Assembly: GCA_902764875.1 (NCBI GenBank) | Contig: CACWXP010000021.1 | Coordinates: 1-59,376, forward strand | From: an uncultured Eubacteriales bacterium | Lineage (GTDB): Bacteria > Bacillota > Clostridia > Christensenellales > Aristaeellaceae | DNA length: 59,376 nucleotides | Direction: 5' to 3' | In this document: positions 42,406 through 51,927 of the stretch, one piece after another | Layout of the letters: each line of letters opens with the position of its first letter | Numbering within the stretch: position 1 is the first letter of the stretch | Notes under the pieces: model-generated | What the model was told of the DNA's origin: nothing | The model's database searches: none | Seen by the model: only the letters and a program-made list of their open reading frames with translations | Translations under genes and position numbers: made by a program

Positions 42406-42435
42406 TTGACAATTACCGCGCTTTGGAAATACAAT
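42406..42435 (+). promoter_or_regulatory. Promoter of the TIR gene pair
   Basis: TTGACA (42406-42411), an 18-base spacer and TACAAT (42430-42435), about 70 bases before the first TIR gene. It is divergent from the rarA promoter. Confidence 0.65.
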
Positions 42436-42506: not shown

Positions 42507-45494
42507 ATGCCCGGCTCAAAAACAAAGCCCGGTATGGATAAATACCTGGCATTTATCAGCTATAAGCATCAGGCACGGGATCAGAAAATCTCCGGCTTAT
42601 TGCGTCGGGGACTTGAATCATATGCGATACCCCGCGGCACCCGGATTTCAAAAAACCGAAAAGTTTTCCGGGATACAGACGAACTGCCGACCAGTTCGGA
42701 CCTTGGGAAAGACATTGAAGACGCACTTGCCGGAAGCGGCTGGCTGATCACGCTATGTTCGGAGGAGTATGCCAAATCCCGCTGGTGCCTGCGGGAAATC
42801 GATGAATTCATTGCATTGGGCAGAAAAGACAGAATCCTTCCTGTCCTGACCGTGGGTAATCCGGAAACAGCGATTCCCGAAGCGATCCGGGATGTTCCGA
42901 TTGCCGCTGATCTGCGGAAGGTAAAGGATCAGGCATTGGCGGGAGAGATGAAAAAACTGATCCCGTTACTTCTGAGCCGGATGTCGGGGAGTTCAGAATA
43001 TGAAATTGCGGCTGCGCAGCGGAATCGTCGGATTGCTGCGTGGGCAGGCGCTTTGGCGGCTTTGGCTGCTGCGGCTGTTGGTTTTGCGTTTTATGCTGTG
43101 CATACAGCGGATGTGATTGAGGGGAAAAACACGGAAATAGCTGAAGCTACCCGTCTTGCGGAACGTGAAAAAACAGAAGCGATTGTACAGCGAAACGATG
43201 CGCTGAAAAAGCGGTCTGCATATTATTCCGGTGAGGCGGAGAAGGCACTGCTGGACGGAAACGAGAGAGAAGCGGCAAAGCTCGCTCTTGAAGCAATGCC
43301 CGGAGAGGACGACGAGGAAACGGATGCCGCCCGGGCGGTGAATGTGCTGCGCCAGGTGCTGAATATCCCCGCGAAGCCAAAAGAAGGATACACGCTGACA
43401 TACAAAACGAATTGCGATTTCCTGATCGGCGGTGTGATGGAGCACCTGGAGGATGGCGTACGGCTTTATGACCGGGAGAATCCGGAAATCGCTCATATGG
43501 TTTCATTTGCGACGGGAGAAATATCCGAAGAGGAAAACGTTGCACAGCGGATGGCAAAGGAAAACGGATACAGGATTGGTCATTCGATCGTGAATGATTA
43601 TCAAAATATGATTCTCTACGGTTCCGACCGACAAATGCATGAAGATATCGGCGGGCATACGCAGCGGGATTTCACCCTGAAGGGTGAACCTTTTTATGCG
43701 GATCATCTCTGGCAGACCGCGAGCGGCAATTATCTTCTGGCCTGGCTGGAAGAACCCGAGGGAGAGCAGGAGATGCATACGGCACTGTTCAGAATTTACG
43801 GTGTCGGTCAAACTTCATATAAAAGAAACCCGTCTGAAGCATTGGCGGAGATTCGGGTAAAAGGGCCTGTTCTTTCGGCTGATATGTTGTCTTCCCGTTT
43901 GGCTGTTGTGGACGGGGGAGGGATATTGAGGGTTTTTGACATTTATTCCGGTGAATGCCGTACGCAGGCGGAAGGATCTTGGAGCTTTGTTCATTACGCC
44001 TACAATTCGGAAGGTCTTTTTGCCGTGACTGCAGACGGGCGGGGTATGCAACTGGATCCGGTGACTTTGGAAGTGGTTTACAAACTGGAGTCCCCGGCGT
44101 CTATGAAACAGATCTGGTACTGTCATCGGCGGAAACAACTGCTCTGCTGCTGTGATGACGGATTCAGGATTTATGACGTCACAGACGGATCGCTGGTGAC
44201 GGAAGTGGGGACGGAAGATGAACCGCTTGGCGTATACTGGGGTGGATATGATGGTTGGGTATTTTCCCATACCGGGAATACCGTGATGGTGTTGTATGAC
44301 CAAAGAGTGGAGATATACACGGTCGGTGTGATTCGTGATGAGAAGGTTTCTGACGCGATAACATTATACGAACCGGGGCTGCAGGAAGGATGCAGGACAA
44401 TCCTGATCAGCCCGGACAGCCGTTATGTTTATACAGAAGCCGGGCGCGGGAGCATTTATAAATGGGACGCGAAAAACGGGGAACTGATCTGGAAAAATGA
44501 GAACGTTTGGTCCACGCAGCCAAGTATATACTGCAGCGCGTTTCTTTCCCGGGATGGGAAAACGGTTTGGCGCGGTAACGATGCCATGGACGGTTATGTC
44601 AGCATTGATGCTGAAACGGGGGAGACGCTGCGGGAGCTTGAAGTTTCCCACGGTTCTGATCTGGAAACACCGGAGGAAAGTGCAGGGGGCCTCATGCTTG
44701 CAAAGAAACAGTACAACGGCGGATTCTATGTATTTGATCCATCCGGCGGGGAAACACTTTGGAACAAAGATGGGAAGGGAGATGTTTCCTTTTCTCCGGA
44801 TGGCGGGATTGTGGAATTTGTGGAACATATTACAGACAGGAAAACCTGGGAGGAATCCTATGTCTGGAAACGGTTTGATGCAAAAACCGGCAATGTGCTG
44901 GAGGAGAATACGCTGCTGTGTTTTGAAGCGGAGACCTATTGGAGCAACCTGGATGTTTCACCGGAAAACCGGGTGATTTTGATTCGGGCATATCATCATG
45001 ACGTTCCGGAAAACGAAATCATCTGGGGTGTGGATATGGAAACGGGGATCATACGAGAGTATCGGCTGGAACATGACCTGCTGAGTACATGGTTCCCTTA
45101 TACCGGCGGATCTGCTGCCGGATGGCAGGAGGAAAATCTATTCAGAATCAGTCGGATCTGCCGGCTGAATCCGGACGGTACCGTCGGAAAGGCGGAAGAT
45201 CCGGACAGCGAAGCGGGAAGGCGCCTGAGTACGGCCAAAGACGAGTACCTTGTACTGGATGATGAGGAATACAAAAAAACGTCCGGAACAGGGTTTGCCA
45301 TTACACGGCTGACGGATGGGGAGCCGCTTTTTAAGGCGATCCGGTCCACCAGCGTGTCCGGATATCTGTCGCCGGATGGCAGTTTTGTATGTGTTTATGG
45401 AAGAGATATAGCCCCTACAATTATCCGTTTATCGGAAGATGTACAGCTGAAAGAGAAAGCTCTGAAATGGCTGGAGGGCGAAAATGATGAATGA
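42507..45494 (+). CDS. TIR-transmembrane-coiled-coil-beta-propeller protein
   Basis: 995 residues. The N-terminal TIR domain (about 11-150) begins KYLAFISYKHQARD and has SRWCLREIDEF, placing Glu97 where NAD-cleaving TIR domains have their catalytic Glu. A transmembrane helix (about 176-197), a charged coiled coil (about 200-240) and a helical segment (SGEAEKALLDGNEREAAKLAL) follow. The last 700 residues show repeated strand motifs with WD40/PQQ-propeller spacing (ILISPDSRYVY, GYLSPDGSFVC). The likely layout is a cytoplasmic TIR with an external sensor. GGAGGAGG (42488-42495) supports ATG 42507; 42534 is an alternative. It overlaps the next gene by 11 bases. Role unknown; signalling or defence is inferred. 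Confidence 0.85.
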   Translation: MPGSKTKPGMDKYLAFISYKHQARDQKISGLLRRGLESYAIPRGTRISKNRKVFRDTDELPTSSDLGKDIEDALAGSGWLITLCSEEYAKSRWCLREIDEFIALGRKDRILPVLTVGNPETAIPEAIRDVPIAADLRKVKDQALAGEMKKLIPLLLSRMSGSSEYEIAAAQRNRRIAAWAGALAALAAAAVGFAFYAVHTADVIEGKNTEIAEATRLAEREKTEAIVQRNDALKKRSAYYSGEAEKALLDGNEREAAKLALEAMPGEDDEETDAARAVNVLRQVLNIPAKPKEGYTLTYKTNCDFLIGGVMEHLEDGVRLYDRENPEIAHMVSFATGEISEEENVAQRMAKENGYRIGHSIVNDYQNMILYGSDRQMHEDIGGHTQRDFTLKGEPFYADHLWQTASGNYLLAWLEEPEGEQEMHTALFRIYGVGQTSYKRNPSEALAEIRVKGPVLSADMLSSRLAVVDGGGILRVFDIYSGECRTQAEGSWSFVHYAYNSEGLFAVTADGRGMQLDPVTLEVVYKLESPASMKQIWYCHRRKQLLCCCDDGFRIYDVTDGSLVTEVGTEDEPLGVYWGGYDGWVFSHTGNTVMVLYDQRVEIYTVGVIRDEKVSDAITLYEPGLQEGCRTILISPDSRYVYTEAGRGSIYKWDAKNGELIWKNENVWSTQPSIYCSAFLSRDGKTVWRGNDAMDGYVSIDAETGETLRELEVSHGSDLETPEESAGGLMLAKKQYNGGFYVFDPSGGETLWNKDGKGDVSFSPDGGIVEFVEHITDRKTWEESYVWKRFDAKTGNVLEENTLLCFEAETYWSNLDVSPENRVILIRAYHHDVPENEIIWGVDMETGIIREYRLEHDLLSTWFPYTGGSAAGWQEENLFRISRICRLNPDGTVGKAEDPDSEAGRRLSTAKDEYLVLDDEEYKKTSGTGFAITRLTDGEPLFKAIRSTSVSGYLSPDGSFVCVYGRDIAPTIIRLSEDVQLKEKALKWLEGENDE

Positions 45495-47466
45495 AAGCAA
45501 CAGAATTCATGTAATCTATCCGGAAAGCAATCCTGAGGCTGCGAATCTTGCCGGTGAGATTAAGCAAAACATAGAGCGCTTCCGCATCCCACACAGGCTT
45601 GTGAAGAGAACGGGTATTCGAAGGATTCAGGACGCAAAGGAAGAGTGGCTGATTGTAATCTGCACGCCGGAAACACCGGAAGATGAGAAAGTCAACCGGG
45701 AAATCAACCGCTTTATTGACGCGGGTAAATTTGGACGAATCCTGACGCTTCTGGCGGAGGGAACGCCGGATACCAGTTTCCCGGAAAGCCTGATCTATGA
45801 GAAAAAAACGGACGGCACCATTGTCGAACATGAACCGCTGGCCGCAAACGTAGCCGGAACAGTCGGACGGGAACAGCGAAAAAGACTCAGAACGGAACAG
45901 CTTCGCCTGTTTGCTCCGATTCTGGGCGTTGGGTTTGATGACCTGATGGACCGGAAACGCAAGGCACGGAACAGGAAGATAATTGCAGCAGGCGCTGCAC
46001 TGCTGGCGGGTGCTCTTGTGTTCCTTGGGTACGCGGTGAACCGGATACAGATCATCGCAAAAAAGAACACAGAGCTGTCCGAGCAGCATGATATCGCGTC
46101 GGCAGCCCGGGATGAAGCGGCACGCCAGAAGGACGCGGCGTATGAATCGTATGTGCAGACAGTGGAACTGGAAGCGCGCACCTGCATGCAACAGGGTCAG
46201 AACGAAAAAGCCCTGCAGCTTTTGCTGCAAGTTTTACCGGATATGCAGGATGTGCCCGGAATCCGGGAAACCTTTGGGAATACGCTGGAGAACCTTTGCT
46301 CTGGAGGATATGTGCCCGTAGCATCCCGGGCGGATTATCTGGTCTCCCGCGGAATTGCTCTTCAAGAGAAGACCCATAAGGTATATGAGGATGAGATATG
46401 GCTCCCGCCGCCGCCGGAAACGGAAACCGAAGATCTGCGGATTCAGTATAAAATAAGGAATGAATCAAAGGAATACGGCTATCAGGTTGCAACCTCGAGC
46501 GGCAAGGATTTGGCGTTTACCATCATTCATTTTCCACAAAATCCGGAAAGAGATTATTTCCTGCGGGATGAAACTGGGACGCACTACTATGTCCAGCTGT
46601 GCGACGCGCCGGTTCGGCACGGAGGAGTTGGAGTTACGGACAACTGTGTGATTCTTGAAGACGGAACGATGATTGACATACATAACGGGGAAGCAAAACG
46701 GATCAATCTTCTGACGGGACATTTTATCCCCTTCTTTGATGAAAACGGATCCGGAGAATCCCTGTCAGAAAAGGGCGAAAAGGGTTATACTCATATTCTG
46801 GATTATGAAGAATGCGATGTACTGATCGCGCTGACGGAAGAAGGTGCCGAAATCTGGCAGCGTAACCCTTTTCGGTATCTGTACACCCTGGAATCCGTTC
46901 AAGATATGATCGATGCAGGCGGAACCACAACACTCATCGGAAGCGGGAAAGGACTTACCGTCTTCAACCGGAATCCCTTCCGGGAATTATATACGATTCA
47001 GGACGCGGAGTGGGGAGATGTCCCGGTTGAAGATCACTTTGTGACAACGGTGGAATGCGGAAAAGGGGTCAATTGGCTTACCTGCGATTGGGAAATATAT
47101 GATCTGAATACAGGAGAAGAAATCCGATCTTTTGAAGAAGAAGGGGCGTTGGGTTCCGGCAGTGCAAATGCTCCGATGTTTACTGCCGAGGGATATGCGT
47201 TGATTCCCGGATTCAAAAGTGTCAGTGTCTGGGATTTAAAGAGGCAGAAACAGATGGCCCGAATCAGAAAAATTGTCGGTGTGCCCGTTGCGGGCCTTGG
47301 CGGCTATGAAGCATATGGCACAGAGGATTCGGGAACCGGGCTGAGATCAGGTTCAGCCATTCTGTTTGACGGTCTTGTTTATGTGTGGCGGGAAAAACGA
47401 GATATTCCGCCTGGAATGGAAAATCGTATAGAGCTGGCAAAAGAATTGCTTGAACTGAAAGATTGA
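45484..47466 (+). CDS. Degenerate TIR-like, transmembrane, coiled-coil protein
   Basis: 660 residues with the same plan as the upstream gene but shorter. The first 150 residues read like a worn TIR domain: IHVIYPESNPEAANLA replaces the FISY box and CTPETPEDEKVNREINRF replaces the SxWCxxE box, so NAD cleavage is doubtful. The typical domain end, FAPILGVGFDDLMDRKRKARNR, is kept. A transmembrane helix (about 166-186), a coiled coil (about 190-230) and a propeller-like region follow. GGAGGG upstream and the 11-base overlap with the previous stop show coupled translation, suggesting the two products form one complex. Confidence 0.8.
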   Translation: MMNESNRIHVIYPESNPEAANLAGEIKQNIERFRIPHRLVKRTGIRRIQDAKEEWLIVICTPETPEDEKVNREINRFIDAGKFGRILTLLAEGTPDTSFPESLIYEKKTDGTIVEHEPLAANVAGTVGREQRKRLRTEQLRLFAPILGVGFDDLMDRKRKARNRKIIAAGAALLAGALVFLGYAVNRIQIIAKKNTELSEQHDIASAARDEAARQKDAAYESYVQTVELEARTCMQQGQNEKALQLLLQVLPDMQDVPGIRETFGNTLENLCSGGYVPVASRADYLVSRGIALQEKTHKVYEDEIWLPPPPETETEDLRIQYKIRNESKEYGYQVATSSGKDLAFTIIHFPQNPERDYFLRDETGTHYYVQLCDAPVRHGGVGVTDNCVILEDGTMIDIHNGEAKRINLLTGHFIPFFDENGSGESLSEKGEKGYTHILDYEECDVLIALTEEGAEIWQRNPFRYLYTLESVQDMIDAGGTTTLIGSGKGLTVFNRNPFRELYTIQDAEWGDVPVEDHFVTTVECGKGVNWLTCDWEIYDLNTGEEIRSFEEEGALGSGSANAPMFTAEGYALIPGFKSVSVWDLKRQKQMARIRKIVGVPVAGLGGYEAYGTEDSGTGLRSGSAILFDGLVYVWREKRDIPPGMENRIELAKELLELKD

Positions 47467-47469
47467 CGC

Positions 47470-47802
47470 ATGAATCGGTTGCAAAAAAGGACAGGGACAA
47501 TGTATAATTCTGCGCAAGACGAACAATTTTTGGTCAGAAAACTGACGGCCGGAGGGATCAGCGGCGCCGAATTCTGCTGTGTGCTGCTGCTGGACACGGA
47601 CGAAGAAGAAATGCGGCGGAAGATTGCCGAAATGAAGAAAAAAGCCGAAATGTTTGACAACGTCCGGTTCGCTGCGGGATACAGCCTTGTGCGGCCGGGC
47701 ATGGATCTGCGGGAAGCCCTGGCAGAAGCCGACGCCCGCATGTATCAGGACAAGGAAGATTATTACCGGGAGCATCCGGAGATGAAGAGGAGAACACCAT
47801 GA
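47470..47802 (+). pseudogene. Truncated, degenerate GGDEF-domain fragment
   Basis: 110 codons matching only the C-terminal part of a GGDEF domain: SGAEFCCVLLLD stands where GGDEF should be, and FAAGYSLVRPG with ALAEADARMYQDKEDYY is the domain end. The cyclase active site is lost and the N-terminal half is missing. No good ribosome binding site is seen at ATG 47470, and a promoter at 47479-47508 overlaps its first codons. The end overlaps the acetyltransferase start by ATGA. It is most likely a remnant kept as a translated leader; compare the intact cyclase at 934-2346. Confidence 0.65.
47479..47508 (+). promoter_or_regulatory. Promoter inside the GGDEF remnant
   Basis: TTGCAA (47479-47484), an 18-base spacer and TATAAT (47503-47508). 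It would drive the acetyltransferase gene independently of the TIR pair. Confidence 0.55.
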
Positions 47803-50159: not shown

Positions 50160-50573
50160 ATGCGTCTGCTTGAGAAAGTGAAGAATCTGTTCCGAAAACC
50201 GGCTTTGCCGGAAGCACCGAAGGCGGCGGAGGAAAAACCGGCTGCCCGTCCGCGGAAAGCCTGCAAAAAATGCGGAAAGATGTTCTCCTATGACCCGTCC
50301 TGGGAGTTTATACCCAATTACTGCAAGGATTGTAAAAAGCAGTTCACCCGGGAGAAAGAGGAAAAGCAGCGGGCCGGCGCACCGAGGAAAGTCAAGCGGA
50401 AATGTAAGGAATGCGGAAAGTTCTTTACATTCCCGAATACCATCGCGCATTATCCGAATTACTGTCCGAACTGTCGGAAGGCTCATCAGGCGGCTATGAA
50501 GGCCAAATACAGCAGGAAACCGGCTGATAAGAACGGAAACGGAAAGGGATCAAAAACGGATGGAAATCGATAA
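50160..50573 (+). CDS. Small basic protein with two zinc ribbons
   Basis: 137 residues, very rich in Lys and Arg. Two similar treble-Cys units are visible: CKKCGKMF...PNYCKDCKK (about residues 35-60) and CKECGKFFTF...PNYCPNCRK (about 81-106), each with the pattern CxxCGKxF-n-PNYCxxC. This fits zinc-ribbon proteins that bind nucleic acid or act as assembly factors; the family is unknown to me. CCGGAGGAA precedes the ATG. Its end overlaps the MATE gene by 14 bases, so they are co-translated. Confidence 0.75.
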   Translation: MRLLEKVKNLFRKPALPEAPKAAEEKPAARPRKACKKCGKMFSYDPSWEFIPNYCKDCKKQFTREKEEKQRAGAPRKVKRKCKECGKFFTFPNTIAHYPNYCPNCRKAHQAAMKAKYSRKPADKNGNGKGSKTDGNR

Positions 50574-51927
50574 GAAAGAGTTTAACGCCAAACTGAAGAA
50601 ACTGACGCTGCCGATCGCGTTCCAGAGCCTGATGCTGGCTTCGGTGGCGGCCGGGGATGCGCTGATGCTGGGCCGGGTGGCACAGGATCAGATGACGGCG
50701 GTGTCGCTGGCGACGCAGATCCAGTTTGTGCAGAACATGTTCATCATGGCCGCGACGGCGGCCGGGGCCATCCTGGGAGCCCAATACTGGGGCAAGGGTG
50801 ACAAGATCACGCTGCAGAAGATTTTCAATCTGATGCTTCGCTGGAGCGGGTTGATCTCGCTGCTGTTTTTCGCAGCCTGCGAAATTGTGCCCGAAACGCT
50901 GATGCGCCTGTTTTCCCACGATGATCCGATCATTGCCATCGGCAGCGGATACCTGCGGATTGCCGGATTTTCCTATTTGATGACCGGGATTTCCCAGTGC
51001 TATCTGACGACGATGAAAGTGACGGATCATGTCGGACCCTGCGCCTGGATTTCCAGCAGTGCGGTGGTGCTGAACATCCTGCTGAACGCGGTGTTTATCT
51101 TCGGACTGCTGGGAGCACCGAAAATGGAAGCCCGCGGCGCCGCACTGGCGACGACGCTGGCCCGCGTTGTCGAGCTGGCACTGTGCCTGATTCTGTCGGC
51201 CGGTGAGAAATATATCCGGCCGGCCTGGAGCCGCTTCTTCGAACGGCATAAGGAACTGACCCGGGATTTCCGGAAGCAGTGTCTGCCCCTGCTGGGCGGC
51301 GGTCTTTTCTGGGGCGTCGGGTTTACGTCCTATACCGCAATCATGGGACACATGGGAACGGACGCGGCTGCGGCGAATTCTGTGGCGGCGGTGGTCCGGG
51401 ATCTGATCTGCTGTGTTTGCAACGGTGTTGGCAGCGCGGCAGGCATCATGGTCGGCAACGAGCTGGGGGCCGGCAACCTGGAAAAGGGCAAGGCGTACGG
51501 TATCCGGCTGAAGAATATTTCATTTGTCATAGGGTTTGTCTCCATGCTGGTGGTCTTTGCCCTGACGCCGTTGGTGACGCGGATGGTCATTCTGACAGAC
51601 GAAGCCCAGAGCTATCTGACCGGCATGATGATCATCATGGGCGTCTATATGATCGGCCGCAGCGTCAACACGGTGACGATCAACGGCGTGCTGGACGGAG
51701 GCGGAGATACCCTGTTCGATATGTATTCCCTGGCGGTGTGCATGTGGGGTGTCGCGATTCCCCTGGCGCTGCTGGGCGCCTTTGTGTTCCACTGGCCGGT
51801 GCTGCTGGTGTATGCCTGTACCTGCCTGGATGAGGTGGGCAAGATTCCCTGGGTGATGGCCCGCTTCCGGAAGTATAAATGGGTCAAAAACCTGACCCGG
51901 GACACGGAAGAAGCCCAGCCCGGCTGA
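50560..51927 (+). CDS. MATE family efflux transporter
   Basis: 455 residues with about twelve hydrophobic helices arranged as two six-helix bundles, typical of MATE cation antiporters exporting drugs or metabolites. The N-terminus LTLPIAFQSLMLASVAAGDALMLGRV and AATAAGAILGAQYWGKGD are family segments. The start lies within the end of the zinc-ribbon gene. Another MATE gene converges on it from the right; they differ in sequence, so they are not a recent duplication. Confidence 0.93.
   Translation: MEIDKKEFNAKLKKLTLPIAFQSLMLASVAAGDALMLGRVAQDQMTAVSLATQIQFVQNMFIMAATAAGAILGAQYWGKGDKITLQKIFNLMLRWSGLISLLFFAACEIVPETLMRLFSHDDPIIAIGSGYLRIAGFSYLMTGISQCYLTTMKVTDHVGPCAWISSSAVVLNILLNAVFIFGLLGAPKMEARGAALATTLARVVELALCLILSAGEKYIRPAWSRFFERHKELTRDFRKQCLPLLGGGLFWGVGFTSYTAIMGHMGTDAAAANSVAAVVRDLICCVCNGVGSAAGIMVGNELGAGNLEKGKAYGIRLKNISFVIGFVSMLVVFALTPLVTRMVILTDEAQSYLTGMMIIMGVYMIGRSVNTVTINGVLDGGGDTLFDMYSLAVCMWGVAIPLALLGAFVFHWPVLLVYACTCLDEVGKIPWVMARFRKYKWVKNLTRDTEEAQPG

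Follow-up and report, generated by a model that had tools for sequence, protein, structure and literature searches.

The window analyzed here, a 59,376-nucleotide stretch of DNA from an uncultured Eubacteriales bacterium of the family Aristaeellaceae, a gut-type member of the Clostridia (contig CACWXP010000021.1, assembly GCA_902764875.1), carries two overlapping genes, P1 and P2, whose products share one layout: a TIR or TIR-like domain, a single membrane helix, a long helix, and a propeller or propeller-like region. The present study finds that the two TIR heads have lost complementary parts of the domain, that these losses recur in relatives, and that the two genes are kept side by side. 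We give an even chance to the view that P1 and P2 form a heteromeric membrane receptor, with P1 supplying the enzyme and the BB loop and P2 the docking surface for that loop. An earlier note on this DNA had described the pair as an active and a worn TIR on one membrane scaffold; its observation is confirmed and its interpretation partly supported.

Complementary losses in a conserved gene pair

The split between the two heads was counted on one alignment of 12 P1 proteins, 12 P2 proteins, 27 other relatives, and four proteins each of Q1 and Q2, a second pair described below. In these counts the BB stretch comprises betaB, the BB loop, and alphaB, and the D-E stretch is the segment that lies between alphaD and strand E. 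The other relatives are a convenience collection rather than a census, some of them adjacent to each other (loci L073, L149, and L150), and shorter TIR genes of ~500 residues were excluded. Three proteins were dropped from the split counts, the block identities, the tree, and the approximately unbiased (AU) test: the P1 of L080 and the P2 of L124, which run into contig ends, and S_L081, a near-copy of L071. Glu97 and Trp93 are present in all 12 P1 proteins, each with a full BB stretch (20 of 20 columns) and a D-E stretch of 3 residues. In P2 the Trp is absent from all 12, the Glu is found in 2 of 12, the BB stretch is reduced to 1 residue in 11 proteins and 6 in one, and the D-E stretch is 14 residues in 12 of 12. 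The other relatives have both Glu and Trp (27/27), a BB stretch of 20, and a D-E stretch of 12–32. Glu97 of P1 remains a candidate catalytic residue, as in the earlier note, and the pairing of an active-looking with an inactive-looking TIR on one membrane scaffold, in coupled genes, is supported. P2 was also said to have lost its FISY and WCxxE boxes; FISY and Trp-Cys are gone, together with the betaB–BB loop–alphaB stretch, but the Glu of the second box is still in place in the window protein. Strand E and helix E are retained. The BB deletion is common to all 13 P2 proteins aligned, being partial in L129.

Mean pairwise identity over all rows is, for the 12 P1 proteins, 87% in the BB stretch (the best conserved of the P1 blocks compared), 65% in the betaC–betaD core, 54% in strand E, and 32% in helix E. 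For the 12 P2 proteins it is 52% in the core, 95% in strand E, and 63% in helix E, and for the 27 others 64% in the BB stretch, 51% in the core, 78% in strand E, and 50% in helix E. The corresponding ratios of helix E to core identity are 0.50, 1.20, and 0.97. (An additional block comparison left out L116 and L129 from P1 and P2 and L069, L072, L082, and L083 from the genus relatives, using 12 of 16; the all-row figures are quoted here.) With its relaxed helix E and short D-E stretch, the acceptor side of P1 looks degraded, and the alignment indicates that the TIR losses of P2 are ordered, not random wear.

Ratios of nonsynonymous to synonymous substitution (dN/dS) were taken from loci L115 and L116, because synonymous change is near saturation between the window and L114 (P1 TIR 0.09, P2 TIR-like part 0.17). 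In the L115/L116 comparison (Nei–Gojobori, 155 and 165 codons) the ratio is 0.14 for the TIR-like part of P2 and 0.22 for the P1 TIR, indicating purifying selection on the P2 head in this one close pair. Since the deletion is common to the P2 relatives and this selection is evident, the head called worn in the earlier note looks instead like that of a specialized partner. In a 47-row tree built on the TIR and membrane part, P1 lies on one side of a branch supported at 100/98 and P2 on one side of a branch at 100/99, each group appears in 100% of 200 bootstrap trees, and P2 branches among the other relatives. Tree distances in P1 and P2 are correlated (r 0.93 over nine complete pairs, Mantel p 0.0001, with L117, L122, L124, L129, and L080 excluded), also without the near-copy L116 (r 0.88, p 0.0002). 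This correlation is what is expected of co-inherited genes, and it fits pairs inherited and duplicated as units.

The same pair was found in related genomes; its absence there, named in the earlier note as a refuting outcome, was not observed. P1 and P2 are adjacent at 12 of the 14 distinct loci that have either gene, and at the remaining two the P1 of L080 and the P2 of L122 reach the contig end. Their spacing ranges from -22 to +13 bases (starts chosen by the analyst), with the 11-base overlap of the window confirmed; the order is P1–P2 at 11 loci and P2–P1 at L117, and the reading frame is open in all 11 P2 genes free of contig-end cuts. The TIR core of P1 is 58–73% identical to that of the window in 10 relatives, and the TIR-like core of P2 45–61% identical in 11.

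P1 exceeds the Pfam cut-offs for TIR_2 (37.5 bits against 28), ThsB_TIR (26.7 against 21.2), TIR (25.4 against 21.3), and PQQ_2 (34 against 27.6, residues 634–754), and after residue 190 it matches L070 (E 2.9e-6). In P2 no Pfam family rises above its cut-off, and none of the TIR families gives a match at E up to 1. Against a profile of the TIR and membrane part, built from 15 relatives outside both the P1 and the P2 groups, it scores 168.9 bits, and the P1 and P2 profiles align residues 17–717 of P1 with 10–606 of P2 (hhalign 99.9, E 3.2e-32, 567 columns, 18% identity). A TIR origin of the second head, suggested earlier, is supported by these profiles and by the predicted elements. In the AlphaFold2 model of P1 (11 rows, mean pLDDT 82.2, pTM 0.63) the TIR elements are betaA 13–18, alphaA 23–38, betaB 53–55, alphaB 66–76, betaC 77–84, alphaC 92–103, betaD 110–114, a short alphaD 119–122, and alphaE 141–160, followed by a helix at 164–249 (low confidence 181–200) and mainly strands at 292–974. 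The model of P2 (12 rows, pLDDT 78.2, pTM 0.56) has betaA 8–11, alphaA 17–32, a short helix 37–43, betaC 55–60, alphaC 68–79, betaD 86–90, short helices and strands up to 115, alphaE 129–147, helices 151–175 and 194–236 (low confidence 164–199), and strands 275–636. No counterpart of betaB or alphaB is predicted in it, save perhaps the short helix 37–43.

By Foldseek the P1 model matches two-propeller proteins, best over 708 columns; the matches listed for both models are propellers, with no TIR structure among them. The layout that the earlier note gave to both proteins thus stands for the one membrane segment each, the long helix, and the propeller strands; the predicted propeller is clear in P1, whereas that of P2, apparently a single one, is looser and loosely matched by the fold search. 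What had been called a coiled coil is, in both models, a long helix after the membrane. A single hydrophobic segment is present in all 12 P1 and in 12 of 13 P2 proteins, the truncated P2 of L124 ending before it. The net charge of the 15 residues on the N side of this helix exceeds that on the C side in 9 of 12 P1 proteins (the two sides are equal in L114 and L119, and the bias is reversed in L121) and likewise in all 12 P2 proteins that have the helix. From this charge bias we tentatively place the TIR head of both proteins in the cytosol and the propellers outside.

A second pair of TIR membrane proteins

A second set of adjacent complete and altered TIR membrane proteins (family f11, loci L145–L148 and L163–L165) was first seen as adjacent TIR genes in genomes G594, G380, G611, and G521 in the class search. 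Here the dead-looking member, Q2, an open frame of 429–452 residues, precedes the live-looking Q1, of 564–896 residues. PDZ_2 matches Q2 at 27.2 bits against a cut-off of 27 in one of two proteins tested and at 22.8 in the other, with weak TPR matches, and the one Q1 tested has several TPR families above cut-off and TIR_2 at 39.7 bits. Among 32 genomes of family f11, 11 were matched, 7 of them having Q2 itself (at least 265 bits over nearly the whole model), and Q1 follows Q2 in 7 of 7. Glu and Trp are absent from all four Q2 proteins aligned, which have a BB stretch of 16 and a D-E stretch of 23, and both residues are present in the four Q1 proteins, with a BB stretch of 20 and a D-E stretch of 7. 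The helix E to core ratio is 0.63 in Q1 and 1.34 in Q2. Judged from these rows, the Q pair appears split in much the same way as P1 and P2. The AU test did not reject P2 and Q2 as one clade (p 0.509), with long branches present. At L164 (G432:C60, 1835–3786) Q1 appears as two overlapping open pieces, reflecting mutation or an assembly error.

The window genome also holds, at about 114.0–122.1 kb of G000:C3 (L084:9017–17116), three genes in a row whose products open with TIR or TIR-like sequence and contain long runs of TPTPTP. Of these, the middle one matches TIR_2 above cut-off (58.6 bits) and has leucine-rich repeats (LRRs); the first scores 23.5 against 28; and the third, of 1855 residues with LRRs, is without a Pfam TIR match and resembles a TIR only by eye. 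This trio is perhaps a third live/dead arrangement.

A candidate heteromeric receptor and its alternatives

The need of TIR domains for assembly, and pseudo-TIR partners, have been studied mostly in plants, animals, and self-assembling bacterial proteins. As a heteromeric receptor, P1 and P2 would be two subunits of one membrane complex, each anchored by a single helix with its TIR end cytosolic and its propellers external. P1, with BB loop, Trp, and catalytic-type Glu, would be the enzyme. P2 would be a pseudo-TIR whose BB loop is gone and whose opposite face (D-E stretch, strand E, and helix E) is retained, P1 being the reverse, with its BB loop complete, its D-E stretch short, and its helix E relaxed. 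Given these complementary losses, the heads would stack one way only, with the BB loop of P1 on the DE/helix-E face of P2, and this contact would be the one by which other TIR assemblies complete their NADase site. For TIR-APAZ/Ago, the BB loop of one TIR is described as inserted between its neighbor's DE and CD loops and as contributing to a composite active site, with two of the four units looking competent (PMC10474274). In plant TIRs it is the alphaD/alphaE surface of the next unit under which the BB loop fits, giving an active NADase (PMC9153377). By analogy, the P pair looks as if this head-to-tail asymmetry had been assigned to two genes, P1 being the donor and enzyme and P2 the acceptor. 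An external ligand on the propellers would bring the heads into contact, whereupon P1 would cleave NAD+, with either a fall in NAD+ or an ADP-ribose signal as the outcome. TIR domains with NADase products are reported from the gut Clostridia Clostridium bolteae, Coprococcus eutactus, and Dorea formicigenerans (PMC9092222).

More tentatively, the two pairs may represent a receptor class in which the TIR contact is divided between a donor/enzyme gene and an acceptor gene, so that the active site would form only in the mixed pair. Such a class would span two families that differ in their sensors, would have arisen once or twice, and would be the bacterial equivalent of heterodimeric TIR receptors in animals and plants. 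A pair from which evolution has removed opposite contact halves would offer a clean test of TIR assembly and NAD+ cleavage.

Several points weigh against this picture. A Glu stands at the aligned position in the P2 of the window (Glu73) and of L114 and, by eye, in the truncated P2 of L124; because the window P2 retains it, the label "inactive" rests on the other losses. Strand E of Q1 is still conserved (93%, ratio 1.08), the BB stretch of Q2, at 16 residues, is altered and not deleted, and Q1 and Q2 are represented by four rows each, three of them close. The P and Q pairs may have arisen once or twice. The equation of the counted D-E stretch with the DE loop of TIR-APAZ/Ago is drawn by analogy. 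Finally, the genes flanking 10 loci show no sign of defense by eye, and the PADLOC matches of P1 and P2 are weak (16.7 and 13.3 bits). Those of seven further proteins (the one from L084 excepted) are absent or weak in the TIR parts. A search for a ThsA-type effector with STALD says nothing either way, giving no hit in 1 genome and none in any of 14 control genomes.

The gene data would be identical if P2 were a brake, a pseudo-TIR holding the P1 TIR in an inactive mixed dimer until a ligand frees P2 and the P1 heads assemble. The TIR of plant RRS1 lacks the catalytic Glu, and RRS1–RPS4 is considered self-inhibited until it is disrupted by an effector (PMC7282519, PMC9153377); a TIR without a BB loop, moreover, would cap a head-to-tail stack. 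P1–P1 stacking nevertheless looks impaired because the acceptor side of P1 looks degraded (D-E stretch of 3 in 12/12, helix E 32% against 65% in the core), and we regard the brake as rather unlikely. Less likely again are nonenzymatic heads that recruit another protein, as animal TIR adaptors do. NAD+ hydrolysis is not universal among TIRs (PMC9153377), but Glu97 and Trp93 are kept throughout P1, and Glu and Trp throughout the other relatives, the BB stretch of P1 is the top conserved block compared, and the nearest flanking genes at 10 loci include no recurring third gene that might be recruited. The absence of several TIR motifs from P2 would also be expected of a decaying duplicate of a single TIR receptor, an explanation to which we give very little weight: the deletion is common to 13 P2 proteins, they fall behind one branch, dN/dS is 0.14 in the one close pair, and the frames are open in 11 genes. 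On the first three of these we reject random decay.

The purpose of the pair is a separate matter, compatible with the heteromeric receptor proposed here. There is a substantial possibility, somewhat short of even, that the pair is a sensor of the cell wall, or of host or community signals, unrelated to phages. The two nearest genes on each side at the 10 loci (first 45 residues, by eye) are differing and ordinary-looking, with sigma/anti-sigma-like neighbors at L115 and L120 and two-component-like ones at L121. The records of related loci name goat ileum, goat omasum, sheep rumen, and similar sources, and the outer part is the least identical to the window (mean 33% in P1 and 30% in P2). Against this, defense is a usual context of bacterial TIRs, and many characterized bacterial TIR enzymes are defense effectors.

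Genomic setting and known systems

A search of 45 genus genomes gave matches to P1 in 19 and to P2 in 19, most of these matches being to the TIR and membrane part of other genes. Apart from the window genome, full-length pairs occur only in G030 (three), and the P1 of G025 is cut by a contig end. Among 300 genomes of the family, the P2 profile matched 72, with a P2-type gene in six (G000, G030, G218, G276, G065, and G125, the last cut by the contig); the other family matches, not each classified, lie within model positions 15–308. In the class, 35 of 391 genomes matched, and G000, the window genome, is alone in having a match that extends past model position 257. Across the Clostridia searched, TIR membrane genes of this type are common, and within these three sets the pair was found in the window's family only. 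Scanning genome contigs with the P2 profile gave 13 loci, including RUG363 (3), RUG13544, RUG11878, Tb.RUG.137 (RUG presumably denoting rumen), RGIG2447 (3), RGIG2707, RGIG6984, and two Lachnospiraceae loci for which the other-relatives profile gives the best score; a P1 scan of genome contigs gave 16 pattern stretches and no relatives. The window pair lies upstream of rarA, which was found in 38 of the 45 genus genomes at the cut-off used. In the 1.5 kb upstream of rarA at 30 of these 38 loci, the pair is present in 2 (the window and G030), a MATE gene in 10, and neither in 18; the site is thus variable among genus genomes. The window has its MATE gene at 50560–51927. The G030 pair at the rarA site is not the closest to that of the window, its P1 being 36% identical against 56% for another G030 copy.

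Upstream of P1, GGAGG, which resembles a ribosome site, precedes the ATG. The pair had been assigned its own promoter, and there is a TTGACA-18-TACAAT match ahead of P1; because promoter-like sites occur in the scanned region at chance number (5 against 5.5 expected in shuffles), a promoter here is only plausible. Three bases past the P2 stop, a 110-residue frame (47470–47802) matches the C-terminal part of GGDEF at 16.1 bits against a Pfam cut-off of 23.8.

Table 1. Features of the P1/P2 gene pair in the window
Feature	Position	Strand	Basis or remark
Promoter-like site, TTGACA-18-TACAAT	42406..42435	+	11/12 consensus; site count not above chance
P1 gene, 995 residues: TIR, membrane helix, long helix, two propellers	42507..45494	+	
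P1 TIR core, residues 11–137	42537..42917	+	TIR_2, ThsB_TIR, TIR over Pfam cut-offs
P1 betaB–BB loop–alphaB stretch, residues 53–74, absent in P2	42663..42728	+	Alignment
P1 Glu97 codon, candidate catalytic residue	42795..42797	+	Conserved in relatives
P1 membrane helix, residues 175–201	43029..43109	+	Sole hydrophobic segment above threshold; positive charge on N side
P1 long helix past membrane, residues 202–249	43110..43253	+	AlphaFold2
P1 first propeller, residues 290–608	43374..44330	+	
P1 second propeller, ~residues 630–975	44394..45431	+	Predicted strands, PQQ_2, Foldseek
P1 end/P2 start overlap, 11 bases	45484..45494	+	
P2 gene, 660 residues: TIR-like, membrane helix, long helix, propeller-like	45484..47466	+	
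P2 TIR-like core, residues 6–125, without betaB, BB loop, alphaB	45499..45858	+	Alignment, AlphaFold2
P2 pre-strand-E stretch and EPLAAN strand, residues 103–122, shorter in P1	45790..45849	+	Alignment
P2 membrane helix, residues 164–191	45973..46056	+	Hydrophobic segment
P2 long helix past membrane, residues 192–236	46057..46191	+	AlphaFold2 helix 194–236
P2 propeller-like region, residues 274–637	46303..47394	+	

Two observations concern the single TIR receptor genes of other genomes. At L073 (G008:C58, 2605–14843), three TIR membrane genes of the single kind lie within ~9 kb as a receptor-like cluster, which adjoins a long frame that starts, by eye, with TIR-like IFISYSHHDK. L068:10264–12309 and L072:8152–10188 seem to encode one unknown family (681 and 678 residues, starting MSY(S/T)AIEKMR by eye) near single TIR receptor genes in two genomes; it is a possible partner.

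In the open-licence PMC literature we found nothing recognizable on bacterial TIRs that are anchored in the membrane and carry propeller or WD40 sensors, or on live/dead pairs of bacterial TIRs, and the excerpts available of PMC10907252, PMC8195603, and PMC7159879 contain nothing on the TIR–membrane–propeller layout. Among the closest known systems are single proteins of Clostridia (such as L070 and L071) with TIR, membrane helix, and WD40/PQQ propeller, which have the layout of P1 and P2 and a related TIR and membrane part, with WD40 families above the Pfam cut-off in both tested. They differ in having a complete TIR, with BB stretch and long D-E stretch (27/27 collected relatives), and no P2- or Q2-type partner was found in the surrounding stretches examined. 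Membrane TIR receptors that are single genes in many of the Clostridia searched appear here to have been turned into what may be heteromers. Q1 and Q2 resemble P1 and P2 in that a complete and an altered TIR membrane protein stand side by side and are split in a similar way, but they have TPRs and a PDZ-type match instead of propellers and stand in dead-then-live order. ThsB of Thoeris, whose Pfam family P1 matches above cut-off, is a soluble TIR that acts with ThsA; P1 and P2, unlike ThsB, have a membrane helix, propellers, and a pseudo-TIR partner.

The arrangement of the pair resembles the paired immune receptors of plants and animals. The plant proteins RPS4 and RRS1 are cytosolic NB-ARC/LRR proteins. 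Like the P pair they combine a TIR that has the catalytic Glu with one that lacks it, and work as a complex (PMC7282519); unlike P1 and P2 they have NB-ARC, which is absent from the Pfam matches of P1 and P2 at E up to 1. TIR-APAZ/Ago (SPARTA) stacks its TIRs head to tail, and two of the units look competent and two inactive (PMC10474274), although there the inactive units are the same protein rather than a dedicated paralogue and the trigger is a nucleic acid. Interleukin-1 receptors (IL-1Rs) and Toll-like receptors share with P1 and P2 a single span and, on the topology proposed here, a cytosolic TIR, and the IL-1Rs are heterodimeric (PMC7075850). In these receptors, however, the sensor is N-terminal and the TIR C-terminal, and the outer part is built of immunoglobulin domains or LRRs.

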